Below, piece by piece: positions 2,391 to 44,110 of a stretch of 64,000 bases of DNA; the stretch's first letter is position 1; each line of letters opens with the position of its first letter. The notes below the pieces were generated by a model, which was not told the origin of the DNA, did no database searches, and saw nothing but the letters and a program-made list of their open reading frames with translations. The translations under genes were made by a program, and so were the position numbers. The stretch covers positions 186,001 to 250,000 of the forward strand of contig JAODTK010005869.1 of the NCBI GenBank assembly GCA_026419785.1. The letters are read 5' to 3'. The DNA comes from Sclerodactyla briareus (Eukaryota > Echinodermata > Holothuroidea > Dendrochirotida > Sclerodactylidae).

Positions 2391-2440
2391 TGTGTATGTA
2401 CGTATGTATGTATGTCTGGAAAGGTATGTATGTATGTACG
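2391..2440. repeat. TATG-rich microsatellite, 5' flank of the LINE
   Basis: Degenerate GTAT/TATG units lie between the MITE and the 5' end of the R2-type LINE. The same tetranucleotide resumes directly after the LINE at 5717. In copy B the MITE runs straight into one uninterrupted TATG tract (22696-22775). This is the left half of a microsatellite split by the LINE. Confidence 0.8.
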
Positions 2441-2945
2441 TCAGTTCATGTTGCTATGAGCACGTATATGGCAAGTTGAAGGAACAGACAAGGAAGCCCT
2501 GAAAACTGAAAATCAGAAGAAATGTAGATGGCGCCTTAACTGGTCGACCTCGACCATCGTGTCGCAACTCGATAATTCTCGGGAATGGGACCAGTCGTTC
2601 TGATGCTGCAACGAAGACGAATGGCATGCTATGGCTATCCTCCCAATTACTACATCACTTTACAATGAAAACCAACTTTCAGTTTATAACCGGAGAGATG
2701 GATCTGACTACAGTCTTGTCGAATTGAAGTTCACGAGAAAGATCCTCAGAATCCCCTATTGACGTGCCGGAATTGAAAATTGTTTTTGATTTGATGAAAG
2801 GCAGCTTTGTGGGATTACATCACTTGTCTATAAGATATGTTGGTAAGAGACCTATCCAGACCCGGCCTTTTGAAAGACACTGACAAGTCCAGGACTATGG
2901 AGGTGACCGTCCCGGTAACGGATTTACAAGGAGAAGCTGACCTAT

Positions 2946-3480
2946 TTGTGGAGGGCGAATCAGCGAAAGCTGTCGACCATGTTAAAGAGGTTTGATGATC
3001 GAGCTACCAACGCGTTGCACTACGCCAGAGAAACTATACGTTACTGTATGAATAATACTCAAACGCGTGCTGACCGATCCGATTGGCTCGAACAACCATG
3101 GTCCTCCGATGCTACCTATGGACCCCCTGGAACTCCCATGAACACTGATTTATCCACCAGTGATGCAGTTTTTGGCATGCTTGTGTAGACCGTTGAAAAT
3201 AAAACTGCCCCGGGGTTCGACGGGGTGGAATACATCACTCTTAAGAGAAATAAGGAGTGTGGTTGAGCTTACTGACAAAGATTTTCAATGTGTGCTGGAT
3301 TAACCGTAAAGTCCCCCCGATTGGAAACATCGCCTTGTATTACAAATCCCTAGAAAGGGCGGTGATCCACAGGTCCCAGACAATTGGCGTACACATTTCG
3401 ATACTATTATCGTCATACAAATTGTACATGAAAGTGTCCGAGCGCGTACTACCCCCGTTGATTGGTAGATACTAAGGGAT
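2946..3480 (+). pseudogene. LINE RT, N-terminal part
   Basis: A frame opening at 2946 reads through a basic stretch ending near FGMLV at 3185. Downstream of the stop, another register gives VENKTAPGFDGVEY, which fits the conserved first RT block (xKAPGxDGV) of non-LTR retrotransposons. The next register (from 3257) reads IFNVCWINRKVPP, then ISILLSSYKLYMKV and SERVLPPLIGRY. This matches the block that normally reads PDNWRPISLL...YK; the PDNWR part appears in a neighbouring register near 3375. At least three frame changes occur in about 500 bp, so the copy cannot encode a working enzyme as written. Confidence 0.8.
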
Positions 3481-4520
3481 GTCAAGTAAACCAGAAGGAT
3501 TCCCTTCCCCGTATGGGTTACAGGAACATGTCTTCTGTTTGAAGTCAGGGAAGGCGTAGATAACCTAAAACACGAGTCCTGCAAAATGGGGTGTATTCTG
3601 GTTCCTTTTCATTATAATTAAGGATGCCTTTCGGGATGGGCCCTAGATCATAGGGGTTAGGTGGATAACTGCTATGAAGACGCTGGGTATCCTGATCAGT
3701 TCGTTGAGTGACAAGTGACCTATATACGGGTTAACTCATTCACTGGTCACTTTGGGTGGCTTAACTGAGCCGTTGTGCCGTCATAAGGGTAAATCAAGGG
3801 TGCCCATGGAGCGCCAGTTGAGCTTTCATCCAAGGGATTGATGCCTGGTTCGTTGGGGGGTTTGCTTCCAACCCATACACCGACCTATACTTGCCTAACC
3901 CCTGTCAAAGATATGTTGGCGATGTTGACCAATGTTGCGGTAGTGGAGGCGGAAATTAGTCAGATGCTTAGGAAGACTGAGGCTTTCTAAACTATACTGG
4001 AATAGAGGCAAAACACAGAAAGGTGCTCTTGTGCATGGACAAGATCGGGAAACTTGGTATAAAAAAAAATATGAAAACACTGACCTAACTCCTCTCCAGC
4101 AAGGCGATTCAATACCACGTTGAATCAAAGATGAGGCATATTCCTATCTTGGCCACTCTGTCAATATGAACGGCGATGCTGGTCAATTTACAGGTCAAGG
4201 AGGTGATTGCTGAATTTTCTGATATTCGCAGAACTAAGCAATGCCCCTCTCCCCGATTGTGGCAAAATTGGCAGCAATTAACTCCATACTGATGTCTAAA
4301 TTGAATTGTTATTTTTGTAATCTTCAAGTTTGCCGACTCTCAGCTCAAAACAATGGGAACCCTTGTAACCACTAATTTCAGATCTTTTGGCTGACTTTAA
4401 TTCGTCATCAACCGATCGCCTCATGTTCACTTCAAGGAACGTGGGTGGTTTGGATTGCTCAAACCCTCCCCAATGTTTTGCTCAAACTTCCTCCTCTGCT
4501 GGCCTGCCTGAACTCTGATG
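3480..4520 (+). pseudogene. LINE RT, palm and thumb remnants
   Basis: Pieces of conserved sequence persist across several registers. VNQKD near 3490 is followed by an LxxKDAF-like segment at about 3620. Near 3910-3970 MLTNVAVVEAEISQMLRKTE sits where the catalytic YADD loop and the following helix are expected; the YADD itself is not readable. TGIEAKHRKCALVHGQ-like words can be pieced out near 3990-4040. YLGHSVNMNGDAGQ (4138-4185), VAKLAAINS...SKLN (4258-4310) and MFTSRNVGGLD (about 4420-4455) are typical of the RT-proximal thumb. Many stops and shifts separate these blocks. Confidence 0.75.
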
Positions 4521-5060
4521 ACGAACAGTTCGCCATACTGCTCGTCAGTCATTTGACAGACATTGACTAAGTCATACGGTCCATAGTCATAAGGTTCAAC
4601 CGTCGGTGGTGCCCACCGAATTTTGGCGGCTATGAACACTGATATTAACGACGAAACGGACCTCTAATTAGAGCATCCAAGGTAAATTGGGACCAGTCGA
4701 TTTATGTTTATTTATTCGTCTGAGTTGTGCAGCAGGTAAGACAAGTTCGAGTCTGTTTGGATGATATGGTTCCAGATGTTTCACATCACCCGTCGAGGAT
4801 GAAATATCATTGCGCTCCAAATCATGGTCAGTTTCTACACGGACGCAAAAGAATTGGTGTTACAAAAAACGGTCACACATTGGTACAGCTTGAAAAATCA
4901 ATGACGTTTAAGTAAGAGAAGCGTATGAACAACACGCCGACTCGTCACCAGCATCAACATTTGTCAAAGTTGGACATCAACGATAAGCTGTGCAGTTTGT
5001 TCTAAAGGGCCGTCTACAATATTTAGAAACCCAAACCAAGTTAAATATCATTACCCCCCC
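4521..5060. other. LINE inter-domain region, weakly readable
   Basis: This joins the RT thumb to the endonuclease. A short frame from 4727 contains LEKSMTFK. Further on, QFVLKGRLQYLETQTKLN (about 4993-5047) is readable and fits the linker that precedes the CCHC region in this LINE group. Between these pieces little can be assigned. Confidence 0.55.
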
Positions 5061-5620
5061 CACTATCCATGACACCGTGTCTAATGTGTGAGTTTATTGC
5101 CGCACTACTAACCATTCCTCAGCAGTTGTTTCCTCGTTCAAGCATATGTATATTGGAAGACATGATCGCTCTGTTGACCATATATATGGTCAGGTAAAAG
5201 GACACTGTCGGTCAATGAGAACGAGTGCTTAATCCTCGAAAATAATCTGGTGACCCCTCAGTTGTATGGTTGTGAGGCCTTCAATGTGAATGTGGGTCAC
5301 AATAAACCTGATGTCTTTATTTTAGACGAGCAGGACCACCATGCTTATATCATTGAAGTTTCACACCCATTCGATGCTTTCATACAAACTTGTATGACCA
5401 TAAATTCAACAAGTACATGCCTCTGTGTTTAGCTGTTCATATCGATGCAATATAATCGTGTTAGTGATCGGTGCATTGGGTATAGTACACAAGAATTTTG
5501 TTCCTCTGGTCCGGCCGAAAACTTGGCATACCCAAATCCGCTGCAAAATCCATGCTATATACCTAAGTATTTCCAGTATGATTGGCTCAAGACGAGTCTG
5601 GGGGAAACGCATTCGGTAAT
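5061..5620 (+). pseudogene. LINE C-terminal restriction-like endonuclease
   Basis: The block begins with a cysteine pair, CLMCEF (about 5078-5095). In a neighbouring register it reads FKHMYIGRHDRSVDHIYGQV (about 5138-5197), where the CCHC-type knuckle leads into the nuclease in RLE LINEs. The nuclease core is intact in one frame (5250-5400): KPDVFILDE, then AYIIEVSHPFD. This matches the PD...(D/E)xK fold, with D in KPDV and E in IIEV as candidate metal ligands. The basic position is occupied by S or H here, so activity is doubtful. Downstream frames give IIVLVIGALGIVHKNFVPL (about 5447-5503) and SSMIGSRRVWGKR (about 5572-5613), the conserved tail of the family. Confidence 0.8.
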
Positions 5621-5716
5621 ATGCTATTGTTCCTTATGTTATTATTAGTTGCCTAAAGGATTATAATGTTTAATATAATTCTGTACTCATGGTATATTAT
5701 GCAATAAAACGAGTCA

Positions 5717-5825
5717 ATATGTATGTATGTATGTATGTCTGTATGTATGTATGTATGTATTATGTATGTATGTATGTATGTATTATGTATGTATGTATTA
5801 TGTATGTATGTATGTATGTATGTAT
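5717..5825. repeat. (TATG)n microsatellite, 3' flank of the LINE
   Basis: About 26 TATG units, with occasional TATTATG junctions and one TCTG variant, directly follow the LINE 3' end. Together with 2391-2440 the tract brackets the LINE. The sequence that follows (GATCGTTCCGCAAGCTG) matches what follows the single TATG tract of copy B (22776 onward), which confirms that the LINE interrupts an older microsatellite. Open frames on both strands here are TYV/MYVC polymers and are not genes. Confidence 0.9.
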
Positions 5826-6297
5826 GATCGTTCCGCAAGCTGGCACATTATATTCGAGGGAAGTAGGAAAACAGGATCGGATGCTAGTTTCCAGAATATG
5901 ATCCAAATTTGTGAATTCGTACTCTGGAGAACTGAAAATAAAGTTTCCGTCTTTCCCATTCAGCAATTACCGGCAGTCCCCAGCCACTGGCTAGTTGCCA
6001 TTAATTTCGAGACATTAAATTCGATACTTCGAATGAAATGTGAGGCCGTCTCTACTTCGAAACAGTTTCATACTTCGGAGCGAGTATAGTTACAGACGAA
6101 ACTAGTCTCTTCAACTAACATGTGCCATAATTTTGCCTAATCTCGCAATAGCCTAGAGGCCGTCACGCATTACTTGTTATGTGGAGCCTATTTTTTTTTT
6201 CATGAAACTAGGCAGGGCTGCCGAATCGGGCTTACTGTGACGCACGGAGACAGGCAACAACAAAGTTTCGCGAACTACGTAGAAGAACACGAAAATT
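5826..6297. other. Duplicated non-coding stretch
   Basis: It aligns with 22776-23250 of copy B, including GTAGGAAAACAGGATCG and CGCAATAGCCTAGAGGC. Frames differ between the copies, so I see no evidence of coding. Confidence 0.55.
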
Positions 6298-6880: not shown

Positions 6881-7026
6881 TTGAACAGTTCTAACATGAA
6901 TTTGGTGATTACTATGTGTAATTATTATGTAATTGCGGGAATTGGTCTGGAAGACATATTTTTAGTTTAACAGTAATACTCATACTGCATGCTTCCTAAC
7001 GCGTTTATCGGGCGTATCCAACCAAG

Positions 7027-7197
7027 ACCTCTATAAAAATAGTTGTGTAACCATAACACCAACATTGTGTATAATTCTCCCCCAATTTTGTCTTTTTTTC
7101 ACACGACCTTACAGAAGGTTGTGTAATATCTTACACCATTCGGGATAGGGTGCTAGTTACATAGTGTTGTCGGAATTACACAACATTTTTAGGGGTG
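7027..7197. mobile_element. MITE, same family, shared with copy B
   Basis: It begins with a degraded CCTCTATAAAAATAGTTGTG and ends with ACACAACATTTTTAGGGGTG, the inverted family terminus. Copy B holds the same insertion at the same place, but there its left terminus is split by another element (23414-23420 and 24261-24440). The MITE is therefore older than the duplication. Confidence 0.75.
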
Positions 7198-8474
7198 TCT
7201 TAAATCCGCGCCAAAACGTTTTACTCACGGTTTGTCTTCTTACGGTGTGCTCTGTTTTCGGCAATGCGTGGATACACTCTTGACGGCCGTTTTCTACCCA
7301 TCTACTCCTCTTACCTTTCAAATATTTCTAACCACTTCCTTACTCTCCTAGGGCGTATTTGCAGCCTCGCCACACTGTTTTAAGCATATATTGCAAGGAA
7401 GAGATTTTTCCGTAACTCGATAAAAATGGATATTGATCATAATTACAGTTACCAACGATTCGATCTTCAACGGCTTCGCAATATTTTTTATTCACTGTCT
7501 AAAACGACTTAAATTAATTTGTATAACCTAATTCCTTGACAGAAGTCATCGTCAAGTTCCATTCGCTATTTGGAATCATCCACTGAGAGTGATTTATATT
7601 AAAACCCGAAAATAGCATGCAAGTGAATTATGAGAAAAAAAACACCGATGAGACTGTGATTTGTCCAAGATTTAATGAACATCAATATCACATTCGTGTA
7701 TTATTCGATGGCTGGAGCTTTGTCTTCGTCCTGGACAGTACATGATCAAATGAATTTCTTCAAAGTCGTGGTTCCGCTTGCAGTATTTCCCGCCGCGCCC
7801 GATCATTCAAGAGTAAAATGTTCCCGTTTTCATTCCCTTGCTACGTAATTCCAACGCAATGACACGCCAAACATAGTGTGTTTCTACTATAGCCAGAGCC
7901 ACGTTACTGACAGTTATGCTTCGGAGAGGTGGAAGTGTTGGTGCATTCTTTTTTGGGGGGATGGATATTCCGATTTTTGGTTACACAAAATGGCGACACT
8001 GTCTAAACAAGCACGACCATAGTTGGTGCGTTGTTTGCAAAGACACCATCCACGACCTGTCTATAGGTTTTTGCAACCCGCCCGCGCATCTATCTTAGCG
8101 GTGCGCCACTATGTGCGCCTCGGAAAAGGGTTTCGGAACCCCAAATTATTAAAAATCCCTGAAATAGCATTCCGTCGGCCTGCGAAATGGCTAACGATCA
8201 GCCTGAAGGCCGGATGAGATATTGTAGTCAGTTTTCCATCTCAACCTATAGTTGGTTCTGGTTGCCATAGGCAATGGTTGCCAAAGGTTATGTATCGCAA
8301 ATGCCTTTTACATGTCTCTTCCATTTTTCCGGAGGTGCAGGTGAGTAATATGCGGAGCGCTACTATGAGGCAGCGAGTCACTCACAGGGGGTGTCTTGGG
8401 TTTCAACCCCCGCCCCCAAGGACCCGAATTGCCCCCAATTGTACACACAGTTTTTTACTGACGCTGAGACAGCA
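7198..8474. other. Duplicated non-coding stretch, no gene
   Basis: It aligns with about 24441-25690 of copy B through words such as GATCATAATTACAGTTACCAACG, AAACACCGATGAG and CACGCCAAACATA. A frame of 165 codons in copy B (25023-25520) is broken throughout here, which argues that it is accidental. A short region near 8010-8180 diverges strongly between the copies. Confidence 0.55.
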
Positions 8475-20190: not shown

Positions 20191-21385
20191 CATTGGTTTT
20201 TTTTTAGTCAAACCGATTGCAAAGCTCACCCGCTTCCTTCGTGTTTATCGATGGTGCCACCCGTGGCAACATTGGCCAGAAGTTCTTCGTGTGCGATCCC
20301 GGTCCTGCCTCGTTACTTTGCGGTACTATACAAGAAGAGAGTGCGAGATTCGCCGGTTCCTTTCACGCACAACGGCCGATCTTCAATATTTCTGACTGTG
20401 GAAATCCTACAACCTACATCACGAGGCGTCAGACCTCAAGAGATTAAAAAGAAAAAAGAATGCCACAACTCACATGACTGAAAAAACTGAAGCCCCTCAT
20501 GAAGATTCTCAGCGCTCACCTGTGTAAGGTGTACGTTATTCAGTTAGTTCAATTACATTAATGTGCCTAATTCTATTATTAGCATTACAGTTAGTGATGG
20601 CGGTCCAACTGTGTACTCCGCGACCCGGTATAGTAACATTGTCATTGCATGTATATTTAGACCTACTTCTAGATATTCGAATACACTCGGAGAAATCCTA
20701 CACAGGAGAGTATCACAGGTAATCAACGTGCCCTACAGGAGCCTCAAGCAGCATTGAAATTCCTGTAACATGTCACCGTAAATGACAGCATGAACGCACC
20801 GCCAGCTATATCTCAGTTCACTTAGAACAGGTTTGTCACTATGATTTCAGGCGTACTCCCACACTGGTAAATACATGTTACCGATTAAAAGAAACGTAGG
20901 GCCACTCTGGTTAATAAAATGAGGCTACACATGTTTATAATTTTTCGCCTACAGTAAGAGGCGACTGAAGGCGACTTTATCCACATTGTTTAGAACCTTC
21001 AATAGACTATATCACATGCATGTGCTGGTTCGTCGTTGTAATATCCAGGTTATCTTCTCATCGGGACGTAAATATCCCACCACGGATCTCATACATGAAG
21101 GTCACCCTTAACCTACACAGGGTTTCATAATCACCTGACCCCCAAAAATGGGTGTCATTTACCTGAATAGAGAAGTTCCATCCGAAGTATGAGCTTGATC
21201 CATCAGGTGGTGATATGTTGTCGTGTTCACAAGTCAAATTGACCAAATATCAATTTTTACTAGCATTTCCCCCTTTTTACAGAAGTTGCCCCAAATCCAC
21301 CCCAATGTATTTCTCATTACAACGCTAAAAATAAGTGATATAATAACCCATTTAGACATCCATTCCTGAATAACTGTTGCATGTC
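20191..21385. other. Linker between copies A and B
   Basis: Copy A/B homology stops just before CATTGGTTTTTTTTTAG at 20191 and resumes near 21386. The linker is unique in the window. It begins with a polypyrimidine-AG and an open frame (20211-20447), described separately. The rest, including 20940-21250, shows no recognisable gene or terminal repeats. Confidence 0.55.
20208..20447 (+). other. Possible exon or unassigned frame after a polypyrimidine-AG
   Basis: A run of T bases ending in TTTAG at about 20207 resembles a splice acceptor. It is followed by an open frame that begins SNRLQSSPASFVFIDGATRG and runs to a stop near 20447. A second register (20251-20481) is also open. The reading contains FFVCDPGPASLLCG and FNISDCGNPTTY. 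I recognise no family. No donor site or partner exon could be placed, so this is a weak exon candidate only. Confidence 0.2.
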
Positions 21386-21989
21386 AATGAACCAATGAAT
21401 TCTTCATCAACCCTGTGAGGAAGTCACAAGGTCGTGGTCTCTAATTTGTTTAAACTTATGACCGCTATGCTATGCTTGGCTACTGGTTGTCATCAGTTAT
21501 TCTATTAGTTCGGTTAGACATCCATTCCTGAATGACTGTTGCAAGGCGATTTTCGTTGATAATTCCGAAACTGCAATTGTAGCTATTACCTGTTCTCAGT
21601 GTAAGTTTCATATCTTCCTCTGTAAGCCAATTGATCCAACAAACTACGACGTAATCCATTAGTAAATGTTGCGGAATGCCAGGTAAGAAAATACATACAC
21701 TCCAGGTTATATTCTCAGCAATTGCAGAATTGAAGAAAGGAATCATTTGCAAATTCTTTGTGCTATGTTCGCGTGTACAACGACATGTGCATACATTTCA
21801 CGTCCCGTTATTACCTCACAAAAGTGTGAAATACCCTGCACGGAAAATGGAGTAATTACTTTCCTCAAATGAGTCAATTTGTCCCTGTCCTTATATGTCA
21901 TTGTATGTATATGTGTGTGCGCCGTGTGGTGTGTTGTGTTCGTCTGTATGTATGTGTTTAATGTAGTATTCATTTTGCGACTACCATAT

Positions 21990-22470
21990 CGTGTACCAGC
22001 CGAGCCTGACCCCGCCGCCCTCTCGGCTCCACGGATACGCCCTCGTGTTATTCTTCCACCTGAAGGTGCTTCAGCTAACTCAGGAATTCCTTAGTCGGAA
22101 ATTGTTGAAGCTCCAGTTTGGAAGGGTATGGAAGGACACTGAATATCAAATCTCGTCTACTCTTTTCGACGAGTCCCTAAGTAACGACGGCAGGGGTGAG
22201 AAATCCTGCTCCCTGGATTCTTTTTTCAACGTCTCCATCCGACAGACGAGAGTGTAGCTTACTCGTGCGTCCCCTTCCTACATGAGGAAGGAGCGTGGGT
22301 GAAAGTTGGTGTCTGTGACGACAACGGGGCTTGAACCAGGACCTCAGGCATCTCACCGCCTTAGCAGGAGGCTACCTAGAGCATCTCTTATAAAAAAAAA
22401 AAAAAAAAAAAATCGGCTGTCACGCTCCGCTGCTCGCTGGGTGCCCACCCTTGCTGGGCGCACGTCTGCA
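21990..22470 (-). mobile_element. tRNA-derived SINE, minus strand (copy B)
   Basis: It matches the copy A SINE (1935-2195). On the minus strand the inner tRNA-like head reads GGTAGCCTCCTGCTAAGGCG (about 22368-22349) followed by GGTCCTGGTTCAAGCCCC, a good B-box (GGTTCAAGCCC). The outer B-box seen in copy A is lost here and its place is taken by a run of about 20 A bases at 22390-22410. Copy B extends further left (21990-22190) than the clear copy A match, so the SINE body may reach about 21990. Confidence 0.6.
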
Positions 22471-22490
22471 GAGCATGCCCTTACGTATTG

Positions 22491-22695
22491 CACTAATGTT
22501 GCCCTAATGTTGTGTAACTAGCACACCTATTATGGTGTTTCATAACCAATTACACATGTGATTATTGTGTATAATCTGCACAATTTGTTTTATTTTCACA
22601 ACCTTTACACAATGTTGTGTTTCATTACCAACTCGGGATCAACATTGTGTAACGTTACACATTGTTGTGCAAACCGTACACAACATTTCCAAGAT
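22491..22695. mobile_element. MITE, TTACAC-rich family (copy B)
   Basis: This is the counterpart of 2213-2390, lying directly before the TATG tract in both copies. The termini are eroded: the left is CACTAATGTTGCCCTAATGT and the right ACACAACATTTCCAAGATG. The interior is slightly longer, with an extra CATTGTGTAACGTTACAC palindromic segment. Confidence 0.75.
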
Positions 22696-22775
22696 GTATG
22701 TATGTATGTATGTATGTATGTAGTATGTATGTATGTATGTATGTATGTATGTATTATGTATGTATGTATGTATGA
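22696..22775. repeat. (TATG)n microsatellite, unoccupied LINE site
   Basis: This is a single continuous TATG tract with two irregular junctions. It lies between the MITE and the GATCGTTATGCAAGCTG sequence, exactly where copy A is split by the R2-type LINE. It is the empty site. Confidence 0.9.
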
Positions 22776-23413
22776 TCGTTATGCAAGCTGTCACGTGTAT
22801 AATGTATTCCGAGGAAAGTAAGAAAACAGGATCGAATGCCAGTCTACAGAATATGTCCATCTTTTTGAACGTAGAAAACAAAAATAATTGTTCCGTCTAC
22901 CTCTTCCAGCAAGTACCGGTAGCCAAAGCCCTAGCTAGTTATCTATGCTAGAATCGCCATTAATTCAGAGACGTTAAATTCGACTACTCAAATAAAATGT
23001 GTAGGCCTCCCTACTTTGTACAGTTTCATAATTTGACGAGTATATAGAGACGACACTAGTCTCTTCAACTAAAATGTGCCATAATATTGCTTAATCTCGC
23101 AATAGCCTAGAGGCCTCACGCATTCATTGCTGGTGGGGGACTCCTATTTTTGTTTCAAGCAACACAGGCGGGGCTGCCGATTCTGGCTTACTGTGTAAAC
23201 GAAGACGATGACAACAGCAAAGTTCCGACTACACATCAAAAAAAACACGAAAATTGCGCGCGTGAACAGTTCTTACATGCAAGTTGAAGTGATTACCATG
23301 TATAACTAGATATATTGCGGAAACATAATTGTCTGAAAACATATTCTAGTTTAACATTAATACTCATACTGCATGGGCTTTCTAACGCGTTATAAGGTCT
23401 TATCTAACCAATA
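22776..23413. other. Duplicated non-coding stretch (copy B)
   Basis: It aligns with 5826-6297 and 6880-7026 of copy A and lacks the 580-bp block found there. No gene is seen. Confidence 0.5.
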
Positions 23414-23420
23414 CACTCCT

Positions 23421-24260
23421 AACAAGTGCAGTCGAACGTCTTGGTAGCTGTCGGACAGCAAAACTCTCGTGGCAAATACACTGCAGGTTTTTTCGCCATT
23501 TCACATTTATCGTTTGTTCACATTCAACTAGACCTCTACTTAATCTGTCATGACCATGGATGACTTTGAATCATGTCTACCACATTAGCCTAATTTTTCC
23601 TATCAGTGCCCATTCCTAAGCCTGTTGCAGTGAACAGTGGAAAACCACTTCCAAGAAATGAATATCTAACATTTTTACACTCATAGTTAAGTGAACCACT
23701 CCACAAGTTTCCATCAAACCGCATTTAGGTGGGGGGGGGAGGCGCAAGCCCCCATTTCTAGGTCACCACTCAGGAACTGGACCGAGATGTAATGTAAACA
23801 AAATCCTGTGGAGCAGGGTCTAATGTAAACTAGGGCGATATGCGATAAAGACAAATCAACACCCCTGGACAATAGGTTTTATTGTCAACTATTCTGGCAG
23901 AAGTCTGGAACTTCTGATAGATAAGGTAAACACTGCTCAGCAGAGGATGGAGGGATGTAAAAAAACTTGTTGGCAGCAGAGAGCCAAAATAAAGTTGGAA
24001 AATTGGGATAATTCATTGGATTTATTTAAAATCTAATAACACTAATCGAACATAAATGTAGCTAGGCTATCCAAGTACAACTTCATCCACCCACCAAGTT
24101 TCAACCTGATCGCATGTATGGTTTAGTTTAGAAGTTATGAATGAACGTGACGAACAGAAGGGAGGAACTAACTAACGGACGAACGAACGAACGAACGAAC
24201 GAACGAACGCACGAACGAACGAGGAGACATGATGACTTGTTAGAGCTGCTCTCCCGCAGC
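23421..24260. mobile_element. Insertion of about 840 bp splitting a MITE
   Basis: The left MITE end CACTCCT (23414-23420) is separated from its continuation TAAAATGTTGTG (24261 on) by this block. In copy A the MITE is unsplit (7027-7197). The block starts AACAAGTGCAGTCGAACGTC. It ends with a CGAA tract (24178-24222) and a terminal hairpin, AGCTGC-TCTCCC-GCAGC(T), at 24245-24261. There are no terminal inverted repeats and no evident target duplication beyond one or two bases. A 3' hairpin, a tetranucleotide tract and absence of TIRs fit a non-autonomous Helitron/Helentron-type element, but the usual 5' TC and 3' CTRR ends are not clear. A related end occurs inverted at 52745-52905. Confidence 0.5.
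24178..24230. repeat. (CGAA)n microsatellite
   Basis: About eleven CGAA units with a few substitutions lie near the right end of the 23421-24260 insertion. An inverted TTCG-rich equivalent lies at about 52785-52820 in the related sequence. Confidence 0.85.
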
Positions 24261-24440
24261 TAAAATGTTGTGTCCCTAACACACCATTTAATGGTGTGTG
24301 TAACCAATTACACTATCATTGTGATAACCTCCACAATTTGTGTAATATTTTCGACAACCTTTACAGAATGTTTAATCTCTACACATATGGGATATGATAT
24401 TTACATAGTGTTGTTGAATCCCACACAGCATTTTTGAGTG
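24261..24440. mobile_element. Right part of the split MITE (copy B)
   Basis: It continues the MITE interrupted at 23420. It shows CACACCATTTAATGGTGTGTG near its left side and ends in CACAGCATTTTTGAGTG, the eroded inverted terminus of the family. Confidence 0.7.
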
Positions 24441-27400
24441 TAGTAATCCTCGCCCAACATGTTACAGGTCACGGGTTGCTCTTTTAACTGTTGGGTTCTG
24501 TTTCGACAATGCGTGAGATTCCACTCTTGCCGCGTTTCAAAACATCTAATCCTGTTACCTTTTAAAATATTCCAACCCACTTCTTATCTACGTCCAGGGC
24601 TAGTTGGCTCCTCCGCCACACTGTTTTTAGCATTATTTCTAAAGAAAAACTGTTTCGTACCTCGATAAAATGGATTTTGATCATAATTACCGTTACCAAC
24701 GATTTCGATTCTTCAATGTTTGCTTTTAACGAATTGGTCAATATGTTTTGTTCCACGTGTATAAAACAGACCTAACTATATAATTTTAAATTCTGATCCT
24801 TGACAAACGTCATCGTTAAGTTCTAGGTCACAGTTGGAATCCTCCACTGACAGTATTATTATTTAAATCTCGTCGGAACTAGCATGCAAGTGAAATTATG
24901 AGAAAAAACACCGATGAGGATGTGATTTGTCAAGATTTAAGGAAAAGCAACTTCCCGGGACATTGTGATATGTATTCTAATGGCATTGGGAGCTTTGGTC
25001 TCCGGTTCATGGACAAGTAACAATGATTAAATACATGTATTCAATCGTGTGTCCGCTTGCAGTCTCCCCCGGCCGATTATTCAGAGAATTTTTCCCGTTT
25101 CAATTCTCTCGCTACTCAAGTACCGAAACACCAATAACACGCCAAACATATTGTTTTTTATCTAGCCACGTACCAATGACAGTTCTGCTTCTGAGAGGTG
25201 TTTTGGTGTATTCTGCTTTTTTGTTGTTTGAAGTGTGCATATCTTCTCTTTTTTTGTTGAAGGGTGGGGGGAATATCCCGATTTTGTTACAATCAAAAAT
25301 GGCGACTCTCGAAGGCACAGGCACGACCAATAGTTTGAAATGGCAATTCCCCGGCCTGAGGATGGCTAACGAACACCTCGGGTCACGATCGCTTGTTAAA
25401 CATACATGGCAGGCGTTGGCTGAGGGGCTCTGTTCTGAGACAGCTTCTTATCCCCTTCGCCGGGTGAGAATTGTAGTCAGTTTTGCCATCTCCCGTATTT
25501 TATGGGCTGGTTGGCCATAGCACTTGTTGCACAAGTTTAATGTATCGCAAATTCTTTTACCTGTCTCTTCATTCCGGAGGTGCGGGTGGGTAACATACAG
25601 GCGGAGCGCTTACTATGAGCAGCGGATTACTCACGGGAGTGTCTTGAGGGGGCAACCCCTCCCCCATGACCCGTGGCCCCCAAATTGAACACACATTTTT
25701 TACTGACCTTTGACAGCACTCAGGAAGTGACGTGAAAGTACACGAAATATATTCTTAATTTGCCGACGCCTAGATCAATGGTAGCCATCGCCTACTCAGC
25801 CTGAAAATGAGCAACGAACATTTGTCTGAAAAGGAGTGATATATTTGGCGTAATGAGTAACCGTAGCCTACAGTACGTCTCCTCCGTTTCTCTCGTTTCC
25901 TCTTCGGTTCCCCCCCCCTCCCTCTCTCCCTCACTTCACTTTCTCCCTTTCTCCCTGCTCCTGTCTCCCCTCCTTCCTTTCTTGTCTTGCTCCCCCCCTC
26001 TTTTCTTCATTTTCGTTTTGTCCCAACCCTCACCTTCCCTAACCCCATGTAGGCGCCTTGGTAAACCAGTGGCACCTCGTCAACCTAAATAATTAAATTG
26101 AATGAAAACTACAATTAGTAATGAACCCATCTACACTGAACCCTATGGTTTGACCCAAATGACCATTTCCCCGGTGGTGGGTGTCGTGAGCCGGGACCAC
26201 CTGGTATAGGTGAGTTTCTATGAAAACTGTCGGAGAGATCTCAACGTCGCTATCCAGTGGAGATACAATGCTGCGGTGATACGTACGATGCTTCCCATAC
26301 ACCTATGGCACGTAAATCGAACGTTCGTCGTAGGCCCTACCCAGTATAGTATACGTCGTAGTGAAACCGGATTCATATATCAAGCCTATGGCAAAACCCT
26401 GGACATTGTAGCCTAACATACGGTCTAGCCATTTCATTTTGGGTCCTGTATAATGTTTGGTTTCATTTCCACCTCAATACGAGAATTTGCCCTAAGGTCT
26501 TGGCAACCCTAATAACTCCAAGCAAAGAACACGTTCTATCATATACAATCGTCTGATTATATATGAATAAAGTGTTGTTCTATGCTAGAGTATTAGTGTT
26601 TTTTAGGAGTCAATACCAACAATAAGAATCAGAATACAAGTTGTTTGAAGATGCTTATTACCGGGCTAATACCCGTACCTGTGTGTTGCTTGATGTGATT
26701 TTACCATTCATCCATTTGTTACCTCACAGGACTCGCTCAAACACAACTTAGGAACATGGGGAGACTTCGGTAAGATACAAAACCGCTTTACAGCTCAATA
26801 CCACGAAGATCATTTCGAAACCCATTAAACATTTTATGGCAATTTACCCAACTGACAGTTTTTCCGGGAAAATGGGGGAAATGACGTCATGAAATTCAGG
26901 ATTAGAGCAAAATCCTTATTCCTCCTCCACGTTTGCCGTCTGGAACAGTTCCCTCGCGTGTGGATGTGGGGGGTATACTCACAGGAGAAGCAGTTATACA
27001 ACAAACGTTTTAAGACGATCACATGTGGTTTTTTTGCTCGAAAGCGTGAAAAACCTGCATGTCACCCGCACCAAACAAGGATTTATATCATTGAAGGTTT
27101 GATTCATTTTGGAATCATTCTAGTTATAATTTTGAATGTCGGGGTCCCTTTAGCTGTGGGTCAGATGGTGACAGTTTCAAAAACATCGCGCAGTCTCTTC
27201 GAATACACTCTGCTATATAAGGGCAGGTTATATGGTTAATTTTAATTGCCGAGAGCTGATTCTGTTACGTGATCCGGCCGCACATGTAATTTTGTTTTCG
27301 AGCGTTTTCAACACGTTTTTGGCGTCACTCATGACTTGATTAATCATATTTTAAGATTTGGCCATCAGTTAATTCATCCAAGAATGACAACCATAAAGGG

Positions 27401-27819
27401 ACAGATACGGTTTCCCAAGACTACTTGGTCCACTTGGTCCGAGCGCAATGAATGATTTCTATTGAATATCGTACATGAACGTCACTCAAGGCGTATTGTG
27501 GTCGTGGAGGGACGCGCGCGATTAACCGGCTTCTCTTGAAAAACTTCATAAAAACAAAACAAACATCTTCCATTGTTGCGGGAAGTTGACCCGTTGTATG
27601 TATCAGCTCACAGGAGGTTACAACAGTAATAATTAGGTGTACTCTGAGTGTGGGTCATGCTATGAATTCTATGATACGTTTACTCAAATGCAACTATTCC
27701 TCCGTGGTCCCCATATGCCGGCGTGAATTCTTCCTACCAGCACGCAAGGTTAAGATTATACGAGCGAACGTATGGTAAGCCGTTTTTCCTCTTATTCGCT
27801 CATGATGTTTACACCAATT
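24441..27819. other. Duplicated non-coding stretch (copy B)
   Basis: It is collinear with copy A 7198-9696, 11235-11890 and 14486-15420. It includes a polypyrimidine tract at 25873-26040. The 165-codon frame at 25023-25520 and the 116-codon frame at 26889-27239 are not preserved in copy A and are not called as genes. Confidence 0.55.
25873..26040. repeat. Polypyrimidine tract (copy B)
   Basis: Counterpart of 9125-9290. The strand asymmetry is kept although the exact C and T order is not. Confidence 0.75.
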
Positions 27820-28060
27820 ATTTGTGATATCAGTTGTTTTAATAGGTGATATCACCGAATATCTGATGATATAATCAAATTATCGGTGATATCCCGATAT
27901 TGATGATCATCACTAATTCATTTATAGATATCACGAATGCTATTATTGATATCACCATCCAATTAATGATATCATCAAATATTATTGGAAATAATCAGAT
28001 ATTTGTTGATTCATCAATCCAATTAATATATCGTCGCATAATTTTATAGCATCAAATAGC
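27820..28060. repeat. Array of GATATC palindromes (copy B)
   Basis: Six exact GATATC sites, plus several near matches, lie within 240 bp with the same AT-rich spacers as the A2 array (15423-15665), for example ATTGATATCACC and TCCAATTAATGATATCATC. The array predates the A/B duplication. Confidence 0.7.
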
Positions 28061-31000
28061 GAATAAAAAGTAAAACGACTGGCCCTACGAACGTGTTGAA
28101 AGTCGATGGATTGACTGACATGAGAACGTCGCATCACCCGCCGTCAATGGACAAGCTCATGGTGGCAGTGACTTCGTCCCTGTAGACAACACCAGAAGGT
28201 ACGGTGCCCGAATTGCTTGTTGAAGATGTTCATATATCAGATGCAGCCCCTTCTCCAAGAGTAGCATTAAGAAAAGGTTATCGCTCCAGAGTCATTACGC
28301 CTCATGAGGTATGAGCAGACGACCATGAATATACTGATGCACAATAATACTCCAACCCTCGTTAGTTAATGGATTCTCTTGGGTGTGCTAACCTGATTCA
28401 CGCATGTTGAAAGAAAGGGGTATCATGGTTTTGGAGGGGAAAGGGGGTACATGAGTATGCTGAACTCTGCTTGAGTGGTTTGGTTGTGTGAACTATCGGA
28501 CAGTACATTTCTGAGCATTACTTTAACAAGCCCTCAGCAACAGCCAACTCATAGTACCGGTCAGAGCTTCCTAACAGTAATATATGTTTGGATGCCTGAA
28601 ATCTTAGTGTCTTGTAGACACTCAGCCAATGTTTCTCGAAAAAATTGTATTCCTATATTGAATGTTCATTACCAATTTATTATTAGCTTGCAGGCAAACA
28701 ACAACCGATCGCTTCATCCGTAATTATCCTCTACGTTTCTCGAGACACACAATAACGGCTATGATGCATATTTCATATCAGAGTAACAGGGTATGATAAA
28801 ACAAATATTCAGTTTCTATATTATCACGCAGTTCTTATTGCCCAAAAACATGCGTTGCGGTACTATCGACAGTCACGACTTGAAATCTTATGTTAGCGTT
28901 TCCAGAAATCGTGAACTTAGTAAGTGTATTGTTCGCAAAACGATTTTACTGACACCGGAAATGATCATAATTCCGTGATTTGATAATGCGCACCAACCAG
29001 CTGTAACCAATATGTGGTTTGTTGTCCCTACCTACCAACGCTGATTAATGAACGGTTACTTTTCATAGGCGGTGCGGGTGTAAACGGCTTCATAATAAAA
29101 CAACAGAAATTTGAGGTTAATGATCTTCTTCCGCAATGTCAAAAAAAAGTTAATCATTCTCGACCAGATGTTTCACCAGATAATGGAAGAGGAATTGCCT
29201 TAAAACCTGGCAATAGGGGTGGTCGAAGTAAACAAGTAAAGCATGCCAAGAGGTCAGTTTTCCAAGGTTTTAGAGATACCCTGAGCCCGAAAAATTATCT
29301 CGGCAATTAGAAACATGTTATCTGCGCCATAATCCGAACGATTGTTCAGGCAGAATCGCAGGGTATTTATTCGGTCAGAAACAATACTCCGACTGACTCT
29401 GAAAGAGTCCTGGTATCCGGTGCAAACGATGCCCTGCCGGCTTGTAACGTTCCTAGATAGATGCAAAATGGCAGGTAGCCGCTCTGTCTTTTACGCAAAC
29501 TTAGACTGTTTCAGGCAGCTACGGACGGTGGAGGCTCCCTAGCTCATTACCCTGGAATATGGAAACATCGATTGCAACAAACTCGAAGTAACACGAATGG
29601 CTCGAGCTTAGAGATTACGAGATTGAAACGCACGCTAAGGAGAGACGTATCGAAATTTCATGTTACCTTAACTGCCTCCCACAGAGGTTGTTGGGCGAAG
29701 CTTCCTGAGTGCGGACGGTGACCAGAGAACAGATTCACATCGGCTTCACTGAGTGAACCCAGGTATAAAAGATGAGGACCCAGGAGGATTGACGTATGAT
29801 ATGACCAGAAATTTGACTACAGTATTCTATAGCGTAGTATTGTTTAACTATCACTTCCAGTTTAAAATCGCTTGACGCATTTTGGAGGTAGGAAAACCAA
29901 GAACTATGTTTCCCATTATCCACTGTAGCCTTGAGCTTGCGAATAGGAGTAATATGCAACGGTATAGAAAAAAGGAATAACCGCGGCGATGTCAACATGA
30001 ATGTTTCCCGGAGAAACCTGATTACTTCAGAGGCAGGGGAAGGTATGTCAACGAGGTGTCTGATTAATGACAGAGTTGCGTCGGGTAGCAACCAAATGAA
30101 ATTACCTCCGCGGGGCCTCGACCTGGAAGGAAAAACGGATAAACTTTGACTTTCGGAGAGGTCTCTCTGGCAGTCTGTAAGGGAAAGGTTTCAAGGGTTT
30201 GAATATATGCATCAGTGCTTTGCAAAATAAGCTTTTGGGTCAATAATCATAGGCACGCACAAGGTAACCCATTCAAAAAAGCGCTATCGGAGTCTTTCTA
30301 CCACGCGTGTTGATCGAGGTGGGATACCATAGCGGTTCAGGCTGCGCTCTGATGATTCCAGGGTCATGCAATGTGTCATTCGGCAGGTTTTTCGTATGTT
30401 ACAAAATCAATTACTTGGGTCAAGTTTACTAGAGCCGTAAAATGTTGCTTCCATGTTTTTTTTTTTTTTTTTGTTTTAGTGGCGAACTGATTTAAATATC
30501 GGTTTTCATTAATCACAGCTAGAGGGGCCTGTTTCGCCGAGGTTAGTCACGCGCCATTGTATATACCAGTATTTTTACGAATCGCTTCTCGGTTGGGGCT
30601 TGGGGGGGGAACTTAGTTTAGTAACTTCATTTCCACCTGCCGACCCCAGCGTAGGAGGAAAGAACGCGACCATATGTTAAGTTTTCACTATTGCAAGGTT
30701 TGTATGAGATGTCGATTGAGGAACTTACTATTATCGATCGACAAACGCTCGAGATGTTTTTACCCCATCCTTGTTTAATTAGGGACACGATCAAGATGGA
30801 TGCAAATTGGGAAGCATTTCGCACCTCGTGCCAGATGGCGTGCGTGTTTTCAGCATCTAATGTTAACCTAGATGGGGCCTCTCAGGAGATCACTTGACGA
30901 TAAACTGCCCTGACGTATGAGGCATGAAATGAGGGGGCCTATATGTTATTATGGGTGTTTACCAGCGTTAAGAGCTAAAAGTGAACTTTTGCACCGCCAA

Positions 31001-32575
31001 GGCATCTTGTCGCAATTCTTTAGTGCATATACCAAACCATTAATGAAGAAAGTTAGGGCTAAATAAAAATTTGGGGGCTGGAATGTTCATCCGAGGTGAA
31101 GATTTGGTATGTTCATTCGCGATTAGGCGATTTTCAAGTGTGGGGGAGGATAAAACTCCACGAGCTTGCCAGTTACCGGTGTCTTACCAGATTTTAAACG
31201 AGAATACTTCATCCACATTTTTCTAATGATATTTTTTTTTTCTAAAAAATTCGCGCGGATTAATCAGTAAAAAAAAGTTACTGAGAGTAGTTGACAGATT
31301 GGGTGTCGCCAGTTGAAACAAAGCACATAACGGCATTTTCATTCAAATTACTTGCAAGGTAACACTCACACACAGTCAACAATTTAAAGAAACTCCTCTC
31401 TCTATACCGACCTACGGGCCGATGTCGTTGTTAATGACTTCGAAAGTGGTAATTTATCACCCAAAGTGATGAAATTCAGAAGGATGTCTGGAAACCAAGG
31501 AGATTCATATTTGCGCGGGATTGGTGATACAGAAATATCAAAAATATAGGCTATTTCTTACGCAACCGCCACATAGGGTGAAAGTCGTCGATTAATTATA
31601 TATAAAATAGGATAACGACACGGAATGGTCAATCGAGTTCGTTCATTACTATCAGCAGGAAGCAGGACCAAACCAAGTCGCTAATTGATATCACGAAGTT
31701 TGTTCACGACAAAACACTCTTAATGTGATGAAAAAAAAACCTGTTAACGTAACAGTCAATGAGATTACAATGATATTATACCGAGGTTATAGGGTACAAC
31801 TGGTTGTTCGAAGTTAATGTATACAGTGTGCAAAACAATCTCTCGAAACTTCCCGACGAAGCTACACATCCTACCAACACTAACCTTTACAGATTTCTCC
31901 CCATAATCATCAACAATAACACCCGAAAAGATGAGATGAATTGCGATTTCGAAGAGTGTGACAGTTTTGAAATGGGGGTAATGATGGAGATATGGGGAGA
32001 ATACATACCTCGAGCTTTCATGGGGTGCATGAGCACCCACGACCGTGATAGGCTTACTGAGTGATGGGCGAAAAGAAAAGGTCTCGCGGTGGATTTTAAG
32101 AGCAAATGTGAGGAGAACAATATCATTTATTATATACAGTTGGCTCATGACGGGGGTTGCTATTAATTACCCCCAAAAAAGTAGGGTGAGAGTTGACCGG
32201 CAAACTCTCATGTGAACGTTAATTGTACGATTATCAAGACAATGAGAAAGGGCCCGTCGCAATTACCGCTACGGTAAGTACGGTATCTACCATACCACTT
32301 TCAGCTATAAAAAGAGAGGGGGAGTAGGAGAAGGAAAGGGATAGGGCAGTGGGGAAAATACAGTTTGAATCAATAGAAACACCACGTGTCCCGGCATGAT
32401 TTATTCAACAAATCTCAAGTTATAACTGGGGACGATCATCATCATAGCAGCTTCCCGGAACCATAGGGAAAGGTTGCGTTTATTGCAGCTACTTGAATTA
32501 ATAAAACTGTGAGCCCCGCACAGCTTCTAGGATTTATTTGATTTCATCCTATTACTGATCATATTCTAACCTTTT
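28061..32575. other. Duplicated non-coding stretch to the end of copy B
   Basis: It aligns with 15666-20190 of copy A. A T-run of about 17 bases precedes GTTTTAGTGGCG near 30459-30476, where copy A has fewer T bases. Near 31045-31150 copy B has a short block with AAAATTTGGGGGCTGG that is absent from copy A. No gene is recognised. Confidence 0.55.
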
Positions 32576-33539: not shown

Positions 33540-34620
33540 GCCAAGAAGCTCGGTGGTTCTTTGACTGATTCTGAGCATTCTGCACTTGTTCGTGTGCACA
33601 GGCATGCCATTCTTTGACCTCTATCACCTCAGATAACCTTTGACGTGACCCTAAAACAATAAGGTTCATCTGTAGAATACGGTACATAAAGCATGTATGA
33701 GCATGGTCCATCTAGGTAAGAGTCGACTTATACTGTTCAATCATCTGAACACCTCTTGTCTTTAACTGAAAATTATACCCAACTTCCACCAAAGACACAG
33801 TTTTTGTACTCTCCATAAGGAAGCTACTCCCTGCCGAATTTCAGCTATGTCAGCCCAAGCATTCTGAACTTCTATATCATGTACAAAGTTCACCTCTGAC
33901 GTTCAACTCTGTCGACCTTCGACCTGGTCCACAAGAATGGTTCATAAACTCATCATGGGAAACCCACATGGTAACTATAAACTGGATCCATCAAGGTAAG
34001 GCTGAGTTATCGTTTTCACGAGCCAAAATTGGCCTATCAGTTTTTCACAATATTCGTATCACTCAATATGACCCCCATCTATACTAAAATGAATAGGGTC
34101 CATGTACTACTCATAGAAAAGCTGCATACAAATTTTTATTTTGACCTCCATTGACCTCAGATGACTTTTGACCTGACCTCTGAACTATAGAATTCATGTA
34201 CTCCTTGTGAGAAGCGGCACCGCCCAAGTATGAGTTATATCCATCTAGGTGAAGTCAAGTCATTGTGTTCACAAGCCAGTACATTTGCCAGAATATCTGT
34301 ATTCCACAATTCCACGATTTTTCACCCGAAGTGACCCCATCCACACCAAAAGCAATAAGTTTTATGTACTTCCCATAGAACAAGCGACTACCAAAATTTC
34401 AGTTCGTTTGGACAAAGCCTTCTGGACTGTTCACAAGGTATCCAGACTTTGATCACTTCTACCTGACCCCAAAACACAGGAAATCATGTACTATTGCACT
34501 CATCATGGGAAACCCATATACCGAGTATTAGCTCCATCCACCGGTGCATCGAGTTGTCTGGTTCCCAAGTCACATGAATACACACAACATCACACATACT
34601 GCCAGGACTGCATATATTCC
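33540..34620. repeat. Tandem repeat of about 250-290 bp with TGACCT words (copy C)
   Basis: About four diverged units are marked by recurring phrases: a (T)GACCTC..TGACCTTTGACCTGACCC core followed by TTCATGTACTCATCATGGGAA and CTGGATCCATCTAGGTAAG. The phrase positions near 33661, 33938, 34190 and 34480 give unit lengths of roughly 277, 252 and 290 bp. The TGACCT words are often arranged as direct repeats one base apart. The same array is shorter in copy D (43405-44110). Confidence 0.7.
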
Positions 34621-35410
34621 TTTGACTTCCGTTAGAAGAATTCCGTTAAGGAATCAAAATGGCATGTAAATATCAGGTCGTCATTTTCATAACAATCGCG
34701 ATACAAATATGATATATGTATTCGAAAGTAACTGGTCATTACACAACGAACAGCAGGAGGAAATCGCCCGAGGCACTGATTGCTACTCGTCAGTTATCTA
34801 GTGCACTACTCAGCCCTGTTATAAATATTGATGACTCTAGGAAATACGGGAGACACAGTGCGCTGGTTAAAGAAAAAGTAGAGGCCATTCAGTTAAATTA
34901 TGCGCTTCTACTAGCACGTTTTTCCGGCACTAAATGGATCCACTTCATTTGAAATGGCCAAGAGGACACATTAGGAAGTATGATTAGAAATTGAAATTTG
35001 TCATTCAGGACAAGAATGCTAATTTGAATGTCATAATCACTAAAAAGTACATATTCCCCTAAGTAATTTATTTCTAGTATATGTTGTAATGTTTTGCTGC
35101 GCACCTAACTTCAGCACGGCAAGGCGATAAACCATTTTGAACTCTCGACTAGTCGCGAGTGAGGCCAACGGGAATCCTGAGAACGTTTGACAAACAAAAT
35201 GCACTCACAGAGAACATTTGTTCCTGCATGTTGATGCTTGATAATTGATTGATTCGTGGCTGAGTTGTGAAATTGTTAATTGACTAAACACGTTTGTCAC
35301 CACTGCGCAACAGTTGCGTAATAGCGCTACCAACCAACATATGCCAATGTTCACTTAGAGAGACTATTAACTTTGCAAGGAGCTGAGTTTCGGTAAATAG
35401 TTCTTTAGTT
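34621..35410. other. Duplicated non-coding stretch (copy C)
   Basis: It aligns with about 44110-44850 of copy D. No gene or terminal repeats are seen. Confidence 0.5.
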
Positions 35411-35629
35411 CTACACTGTAAACAATTTCTGTAGAATTTACAATAAATTTCTGGCCAACCTCGTGTGTCAGTAATTACTGTAAATTTCACCGTAAACTAC
35501 TGTCAACTTCACAGTAAAATTACAGTCATATCATTTACTGTAAATTTCACAGTAATTAATTGTAAAATTTACAATAGGAATACTTGCCAGTATTTCTGTA
35601 AATTCTACAACAAAAGAAATACAGTGTAG
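35411..35629. mobile_element. MITE with TIR CTACACTGTA
   Basis: The element is 219 bp. The left end is CTACACTGTAAACAATTTCT then GTAGAATTTAC. The right end, read in reverse complement, is CTACACTGTATTTCTTTTG then TTGTAGAATTTAC, so the TIR is about 30 bp and imperfect. The interior repeats TTACTGTAAATTTCACAGTA words in both orientations. Copy D lacks it at the matching place (about 44850), and so does the second C unit (about 37495). A diverged relative lies at 59746-59973. The target duplication is uncertain; TTAG-like flanks are seen. Confidence 0.8.
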
Positions 35630-35879
35630 CTTAGAGCAATGAGGCATGTGCTACCTCAACTTTTTATAAACAGTGAAAAAAACTCGAAGGAAGAAAATGG
35701 AAAATGACTGAAAACATAAAACAATAGGAATTCAAACAAAGAGGAAGCCAAGCGACAAAAAATACAGGATCATTTTCGACTGTTTCGCGTGAAGGATCAG
35801 ATGCTCAAACCACACACTCTTTTTAGGGAGTTCTACGGTCTCTACGAAGGCGACCGCTCTAGGCTTACTTAGATGGACA

Positions 35880-37260
35880 TATTGCAGAACGTATAGAAGA
35901 TAGACTAAATTCAAATCTGCTGTGCTTTCTCACAGCTTTCCCTGGAATTCGCATCAGGTGAACCGACTAACCTTTTCGCAGGCTATCAACTGACCCTGGT
36001 GGAAACTGAAGCCTACGTTTACTATGCTACCGCATCGATTATTTCCACTCTGAAGCGTTATCTGTGATGGAACGTCGGTTTAGTTCTTTTTTTTATTTAT
36101 ATGATAAAGGAAGAAGAAACATGAGTGGAAAAGAGAGAGACCGTCTGAAGTATGGGAAATACGGAACATTTCGAGTGTAAACTTTGGGCCAGATCCAGTG
36201 AGTGACCAATATTACCCTGCCAAACAAGAGTGTTTAATTTTTGGGGACTCTCGATATACTGGCAAGTCAATTATATGGATAACTACATTTCCCATTCAGT
36301 TACCTAAGTGGGCTACTCAGTTGGAGTATATTCATTACTCGTCCACTCTGCTTCATGTATTGTAAAACAAAAAGAGATCGACTGCCAGATTCGACGGACT
36401 CTCTTAAAGGGGCTACAAGAGTTCCGTACATTGACACACATCTTTCATAAACTAAAATTAGGTTGTTCCTCGGGGCTTGGAAGCCCCTTCAAGTGGTGGC
36501 CTACATGAAGGATACCGTAGACATCGCATGCTAGCGGGGGCAACTACTGAAGCCAAACTCACAAAAACTTCGTAAAACATACCGTAGGGTGCAGATAGCG
36601 ATTCTGGTCATGAAGCCCCAACTTAACTGCTAGGGCTCCCACGCTTTTGCGTGGTATGGAATATATTATTGGGAAGCCTAGAAAAGGCTGCCTACTGAAA
36701 GGTCCTCGCTATGACGATTTCAACGGAAAAGAAACCCTTTTTTATTATGGCTTTGTGAATCCGTACCGGAGTGACTGTTTTTTATGTGGAGAGGACATGT
36801 TTTCTCATCGAGAGATCTTCAGACCGGACCTGGTGGGTTCTCAACAACAAGTCCCAATGCTTAGGATTCACACGAGTAATGCCTCTTTGGTCATCACCTT
36901 GACCTATTCCTGCTTTGGCATGGCAGCACCGTGGGTGGTTAGAGTTTTGACCCGTCCTGATAGTAAGATATCCCCCATCAGTCATAAGACAGAGCGTTCG
37001 AGGCACAGCAAATACCCACCCGTATTTTACACATTCGTTTGCACGCATTTACTAATATGAAAATGGATTCCACTTCATTGTCATCGGTGGCGAAATAACC
37101 AGGGAATACCAGGTAGCCAGTACATTTGTTATCTACCGTCGTGCTCTCTGCTCTCAATTCATGCAGCACTTGCGGTTGTGTGGAACCTCATCTGACATCG
37201 TACTCCGGAAAATTGACCTAGACCTTGATTGAACTGCGCGGACGAACAACCCCCCCCCCT
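35880..37260 (+). repeat. Inner unit C1
   Basis: This unit begins near the phrase AATCTGCTGTGCTTTCTCACAGC and shares order with C2 (37680-39600) and with copy D. Shared landmarks are TGATGGAAACTGAAG, CTTCATGTATTG and TTGACACA, and the block ending at the CATTTTCAT-like sequence near 37060. The 137-codon frame at 36647-37060 has no register-conserved equivalent in C2 or D. Confidence 0.65.
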
Positions 37261-37679
37261 CTCCCATGGAATTACATACGTCAAATGAAAGCATTACCTT
37301 TCCCCCACTTAAATGCCATAATTTTGCAAAACTATGAGATGCATACTGTCGAGATATGAATTCATGAATGAGAACGAAAAAACAAAGGGAACTTTTCCAG
37401 TTCCCTCCAGCTCATCAACTAACTGGCATAATTTCCATCAGGAGACGTTGTCTCGGTGAAGAGCTGATTTTCGGTGAATAGGTCCTTTCAGTTCTAACTT
37501 CTCTGCCATAATTTACCTCAAACATAGATTTTTTCATAGTTATAGAATAATGGAACACGCTTGGCAGGACAACTGCAGAGACCGCAAAAACAAGCAACAA
37601 AAATGGGTCAATCGTTTTGCGATGCTTCGCGAAAGCAGCAATAAGCCCTCGAACTCAATCTTTCGAGCACAACGGCTAA

Positions 37680-43404: not shown

Positions 43405-44110
43405 TATTGATTTTCCACTATTTCCCAATCGAACCAAGTAGGATGATACACCCAACCTACATCAAACACAGAGGTTTTGTACTCCCGATAAGAAAGCTAC
43501 ACGCCAAATTTCAGCGAATCAGCGCCAAGCGTTTCTGCTCTGAATTCTATATCAGTTTCGAAGTTTTAAAGACTATCTCTCTTTTGACCTTCGACCTGGC
43601 CCACAAAAAAGGTTCTGGACTCAGCAATCGGAAAACCCACATGTTAAACTATGAACTGGATCCATCATATGACCCCACGTCCACACTAAATGGATTGGTT
43701 CCATGTACTACCCATTGAAAAGCTGCATACACAGTTCACTTCATTGACCTCAGTGGCCGTTGGCCTCCTTTGACTTTCAAAACTATGGATTCATGTACTC
43801 ATTTTGAGGGAAGTCGCACACAACCAAGTTTGAGTTTCATATTCACAATTTCACGATTTCCACCCGGAGTGACCCCATCCACCCAAAGAATCGGTTCAGT
43901 ACTTCTCATAAGAAAGCGGCATGCCAAATTTCAGTTTGTTGGACAAAGTTCTGGAACGTGAAGTGTCACAAGGATCCAGACTTTGATACTTGACTACCAT
44001 CAAAACAAGGAGCGGATCATGGACTATTGTCTCTTTATGCGGAACCCATATATCAAGTATGGGCTTTTTATCCATGCCAATGCAGTCGAGTTGTCGGGTC
44101 ACAAGTAAGG
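43405..44110. repeat. Tandem repeat with TGACCT words (copy D)
   Basis: This is the shorter and more decayed counterpart of 33540-34620. Recurring phrases are CTCCCGATAAGAAAGCTACAC, CCATGTACTACCCATTGAAA and CATTTTGAGGGAAGTCGCAC. The array has about three unit remnants. Confidence 0.65.

Follow-up and report, generated by a model that had tools for sequence, protein, structure and literature searches.

Layout of the locus

The DNA analysed, referred to here as the window, is a stretch of 64,000 nucleotides that corresponds to positions 186001-250000 of contig C3112 in an assembly of 319 Mb and 3171 contigs. Across positions 2392-5826 there are, in order and all read on the forward strand, an imperfect TATG stretch (2392-2441) which on parsing into units is found to contain TACG, TCTG and GAAAGG, a decayed LINE, presumably of the RLE type, that is ~3.28 kb in length (2442-5717), and a TATG tract of 109 bp and 28 copies that was delimited by TRF (5718-5826). 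A LINE lying between the same tetranucleotide on both sides was what the first-pass annotation had described, and this is borne out. The extent of the LINE is given by the lack of a match in the paralogous copy discussed below and by 41 matches in its own genome, with the 5' boundary uncertain by ~25 bp. A CAATAAA box (5702-5708) is found 9 bp 5' of the 3' junction, a similar box being present in copies and distant relatives of the element. The left TATG stretch is directly adjoined by a MITE (2212-2391, no strand assigned) with 20-bp perfect terminal inverted repeats, the arms of which (2212-2231 and 2372-2391) are 100% complementary in a repeat search, and by alignment a homologous region also lies to the left of the tract in the paralogous copy. 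TATG runs of at least three units occur in the window only at 2402-2438 and in the two tracts found by TRF, 5718-5826 and 22694-22774. Perfect TATG runs make up 174 of the 64,000 bases with both tracts of the locus combined, so a single landing of a LINE in one of them by chance is conceivable.

The first 20 kb of the window recur, in diverged form, at 21380-32566, and the site that corresponds to the LINE locus (A) is present in this second copy (B). Positions 1499-2441 of A align piecewise to 21509-22748 of B, and 5747-6297, 6882-7028 and 7044-7954 of A align to 22694-23255, 23263-23414 and 24297-25221 of B, in each case with 71-80% identity. In B the left flank, a single TATG tract of 20.8 copies (22694-22774, forward strand, from TRF and the flank alignments) and the right flank follow in sequence without a LINE. 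Comparison of the window with itself gave no match to the LINE body, whether in B or at any other place, and tblastn gave no convincing second LINE copy within the window, the best outside match having an E-value of 0.25. The earlier description of a paralogue with shared flanks, one TATG tract and no LINE is thus upheld, the paralogue being a diverged one; the accompanying claim, of junctions made exact by the empty site, has to be given up, because the TATG repeat and ~25% divergence blur the ends. A candidate target-site duplication, 20-44 bp long and recognised by its TCTG unit, was considered and rejected: 559 of 2000 shuffles of the units reach its score, as do 454 of 2000 in a narrower test, hence the candidate is no better than shuffled units.

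As the tract is present in B and the element is not, the former would predate the insertion, unless B once carried the LINE and lost it by recombination between the two TATG tracts, in which case B would not be a primitive empty site. The presence of two like repeats around the element, together with the single tract retained by B, fits such a loss, yet it needs an extra event whereas elements of this family often insert beside TATG, and we consider it unlikely. B is the one empty site obtained for the lineage; the flank of another locus, L038, was also used as a probe and is an abundant repeat. Six other segments that are private to A or to B have no microsatellite at their junctions by eye, the ends in question being alignment ends only.

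Coding content of the element

The reading frames of the LINE change often and it can be read in pieces only. Pieces of a reverse transcriptase (RT) are found in changing frames, chosen by eye, at 3189-4070 on the forward strand, and the 809-aa read-through of 24 such pieces in order matches Pfam RVT_1 with 30.9 bits against a cut-off of 29.6 (E 2.9e-7), an E-value that is flattered by the picking of frames by eye, since the RT part of the forward strand obtained by automatic joining of open frames (474 aa) has no Pfam match. The part of the reverse strand joined in the same way (644 aa) has no match either. The copies elsewhere in the genome are firmer evidence for the identity of the LINE than the RVT_1 score. 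An unbroken 81-aa frame in a relative on contig C11, which involves no choice of frame, matches RVT_1 with an E-value of 0.0072, below the cut-off.

Further towards the 3' end, at 5098-5452 on the forward strand, a CCHC-like stretch and a putative endonuclease block were recognised by alignment with pieces of distant relatives. The block reads HNKPDVFILD...IIEVSHPFDAF, and a block of the form HRKPD...CPFDAF located 3' of the RT is common to eight aligned pieces. Between the RT and the endonuclease a candidate CCHC knuckle reads CYFCNNSSDTVSHAMISC in locus L077, where Pfam zf-RVT gives an E-value of 0.022, below the cut-off. The names given here to the RT-like motifs, the CCHC-like stretch and the endonuclease block are presumptive. 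After the endonuclease block there is a C-terminal piece (5464-5616, forward strand; VIGALGIVHK...IGSRRVW) with a similar block in loci L064 and L087, this part being in appearance what we take to be HERO-like. The endonuclease block itself had no match in Pfam, a profile made from the block had no match, the PDB row obtained with it was at chance level only, and no match to R2 was found in the PDB searches. Pfam searches with short pieces of the element gave nothing relevant, and a single-sequence fold of the endonuclease piece had a pLDDT of 44, which is too low for use. No relative was found among genome contigs, nor among viral contigs, where five pattern matches were by eye not RTs, and a plasmid search gave no match.

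Close copies in the same genome

A DNA search of the genome with the LINE gave 41 matches at 24 places, the window included, with 68-93% identity to the window copy, a place being the match pieces merged within ~5 kb on a contig. Of these, 23 were examined and the one on C1435 was left out. Perfect coding-strand runs of TATG, 16 bp or longer and no more than 200 bp from the end of the match, were present on the 5' side at 7 of the 23 places, on the 3' side at 10 and on either side at 12, and on the opposite strand at none of the 23. Raising the minimum length to 20 bp leaves 6 places on the 5' side, 7 on the 3' side and 11 on either. If imperfect tracts are admitted from 12 bp upwards, over the same 200 bp, the 5' side has one at 10 places and the 3' side at 11, and a single locus, L044, has a short imperfect tract on the other strand. 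The first-pass annotation had proposed a check on the 5' flanks of other copies, and TATG is present there at the places counted above. Across 38 loci a TATG microsatellite is found at 25 and any other unit at no more than 2. A rough bound on chance occurrence is ~0.006 per place for both ends and one strand, from 7930 overlapping perfect 20-mers in 319 Mb, and the binomial probability for the close places is then 2.5e-21, a figure good for its order of smallness only as it mixes the 16-bp observation with the 20-bp density and assumes independence.

Eleven of the 23 places have no 16-bp run (C836, C2788, C2031, C2432, C463, C2545, C948, C879, C1016, C1499 and C3143); shorter or imperfect tracts are present in C836, C879 and C3143, and many of the matches at these eleven places end inside the element. 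The 3' end, taken as a match that extends to element position 3250 or beyond, is reached at nine places, namely the window, C784, C2432, two in C2276, C2869, C3102, C2872 and C3143, and it is followed by TATG at seven of them, the exceptions being C3102 and C2432, the latter with no tract near either end of the match. At the other end the matches begin at element positions 69, 2287, 2358, 2571 (two places) and 2844 with TATG 1-18 bp upstream, and at 2872 with TATG 91 bp upstream. The upstream flanks of these seven places and of the window show no mutual similarity at an E-value of 1e-3, and with unrelated flanks and differing starts the copies look like separate insertions.

It might be supposed that the copies spread mainly by duplication or by unequal exchange between TATG arrays, with few primary insertions among them. 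Such events do seem to have occurred, as two neighbouring copies, C2127a and C2127b (L081 and L078), begin with identical 5' bases, which points to duplication, and beside the arrays of L024 (C2276) and L031 (C2869) there are endonuclease pieces of another family that are ~50% identical to the distant relatives. Pieces shortened at the 3' side also meet TATG, the one on C1919 (L021) stopping at element position 3139 and that on C3153 (L038) at 2743, each with TATG on both sides, and as plain target-primed insertion does not predict short 3' ends at TATG these two are suggestive of array exchange. As the main source of the family this process is improbable, given that the upstream flanks of the eight close places are unrelated, that the starts of the matches vary and that identity to the window copy spans the whole of the range given above.

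Distant relatives

When the endonuclease part was used as a protein query, 20 more places that do not belong to the close family came up; 13 of them were cut out, and these 13 loci lie on 10 contigs and include three neighbouring pairs (on C2761, C2127 and C2311). These relatives are 34-48% identical in the endonuclease part. Within each of the 13 loci (~3.2 kb) the coding strand has a TATG run that is 20 bp or longer, and on the other strand none of the 13 has one. Two contigs, C9 and C11, were sampled from the list of TATG runs in the genome, and one of the two has such an RT beside the tract; the TATG of this C11 relative is not independent evidence because it was found through the TATG search itself. 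Elements of the same or of different families are seen in series between TATG tracts at L078/L081 (C2127), L072/L075 (C2761), L024 and L031.

That one LINE landed in a microsatellite by chance, which the composition of the window allows for a single event, can hardly be the explanation when the association is seen at 12 of the 23 close places and at all 13 distant loci cut out, every time on the coding strand. We regard it as extremely improbable.

The 3' junction

Where the 3' ends of the distant relatives are visible they mostly read TACTGTGG...CAATAAA and then TATG. The motif TACTGTGGTN{4,14}CAATAAA occurs 46 times in the genome and its backward control 7 times, and with TATGTATG following 2-14 nt on, the same motif gives 32 rows at 26 distinct places where the control gives none. 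At 15 of 16 distinct 3' ends that have a CAATAAA-like box near the tract (18 rows, two of them repeated) the tract opens with TATG. Exceptions to this register are L056 and L083 and, by eye, 6 of the 26 places with the motif. The 5' junctions have no fixed register by eye. The fixed 3' register could be the result either of a nick in one register or of UAUG units in the RNA annealing to the CATA strand.

A near-constant register at the 3' side is also what would be expected of a tail, and the element might carry a (TATG)n tail of its own and insert anywhere, in which case most of the adjoining TATG would be part of the element. RTE elements often have simple repeats at the 3' end, according to the excerpted text of PMC2887409. 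Such an account fails as the only one, because matches with different start positions have TATG immediately 5' of them and because B has the tract alone, and we hold it to be very unlikely. The first-pass annotation had suggested that the 3' TATG may be partly the element's own tail; as a full account this falls to the 5' TATG of truncated copies and to the empty site, whilst the more limited form, in which part of the TATG came with the transcript, is possible.

Probable targeting of TATG microsatellites

The window element is very probably an old, decayed copy from a lineage of RLE non-LTR elements whose insertion sites are (TATG)n microsatellites, entered in a single orientation. Such targeting had been raised as a possibility from the window sequence, and it is supported by the TATG on the coding strand at 12 of the 23 close places and at the 13 distant loci cut out, by its presence at both ends and at differing 5' starts, and by the empty site. 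Against it stand the eleven close places that have no 16-bp run, the two 3' ends that no tract follows, the pieces that meet TATG short of the 3' end and the exceptions to the register. The way in which this might come about can be outlined from the general biology of such LINEs. The endonuclease would nick the CATA strand of an array, and the nicked 3' end would prime reverse transcription of the element RNA, the 3' end of which would bear the CAATAAA-like box, 8-13 nt short of the junction. Copying would often halt early, and 5'-truncated copies joined to TATG would be the product.

A wider reading, which is possible but which we would put at somewhat under even, is that of a long-lived radiation of several divergent RLE LINE families for which a single tetranucleotide microsatellite is a safe haven. 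The families would insert side by side in shared TATG arrays, with a common orientation and for the most part a common register, and base pairing between UAUG units in the transcript and the nicked CATA strand might be what guides them.

Relation to known elements

Targeting of microsatellites by RLE LINEs is already known and the TATG lineage would be a further case of it. Most RLE LINEs are target-specific, the Togen families being specific for (TG)n and some HERO families for microsatellites (PMC4640811, in excerpt), with the statement on HERO referring to work on the Californian leech (same excerpt). In the excerpted part of PMC3636483 DongAg and DongBg are inserted in microsatellite repeats, and several HERO elements are not site-specific; the target of Dong is given as (TAA)n in that of PMC2887409. 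The window element resembles Dong in being a probable RLE LINE in a microsatellite, although the unit here is TATG as opposed to (TAA)n (PMC3636483 and PMC2887409, in excerpt). It also resembles Togen of fish, a microsatellite-specific RLE LINE related to NeSL with (TG)n as its unit, and its lineage is like the HERO clade in that some families of the latter are microsatellite-specific (PMC4640811, in excerpt).

R2 and R2-like elements are treated in PMC5035012 and PMC7650587 (both in excerpt), and the target of R2 is the 28S rDNA (PMC4640811, in excerpt). As far as the pieces show, the order of parts is the same as in R2, with an RT, a CCHC-like stretch and a putative C-terminal endonuclease block, but R2 is found at its 28S rDNA site whereas the window copy sits in a TATG tract. 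The 64-kb window has no Rfam match, so for the window copy the 28S insertion that marks the R2 clade is absent. In the literature searched, most of it outside subscription journals, no report of a TATG target for such a LINE was found, the single paper that came up being on a shrimp genome.

With this lineage a tetranucleotide would join the microsatellites that retrotransposons use as targets, with divergent relatives in one genome that share the orientation and mostly the register. It may thus offer a testable system for the way in which the endonuclease, the target repeat and the 3' end of the RNA determine where insertion takes place, and for the question of whether arrays of microsatellites act as havens.

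Other features of the window

The window contains old segmental duplications in blocks of ~70-80% identity, which pair 1-20180 with 21380-32566, 33774-39276 with 43447-46982 and 40060-41395 with 50173-51541. They run collinearly apart from several segments that one side has and the other lacks, such as 23415-24296 of B, which is absent from A and includes a GAAC tetranucleotide tract at 24165-24222. There are two satellite-like arrays, at 54196-56359 with a unit of ~360 bp and at 62496-63448 with a unit of ~236 bp. Between the two arrays, at 57400-57953, open pieces resemble the tail of another LINE, of which 57400-57732 has 23 matches in its own genome, itself included.
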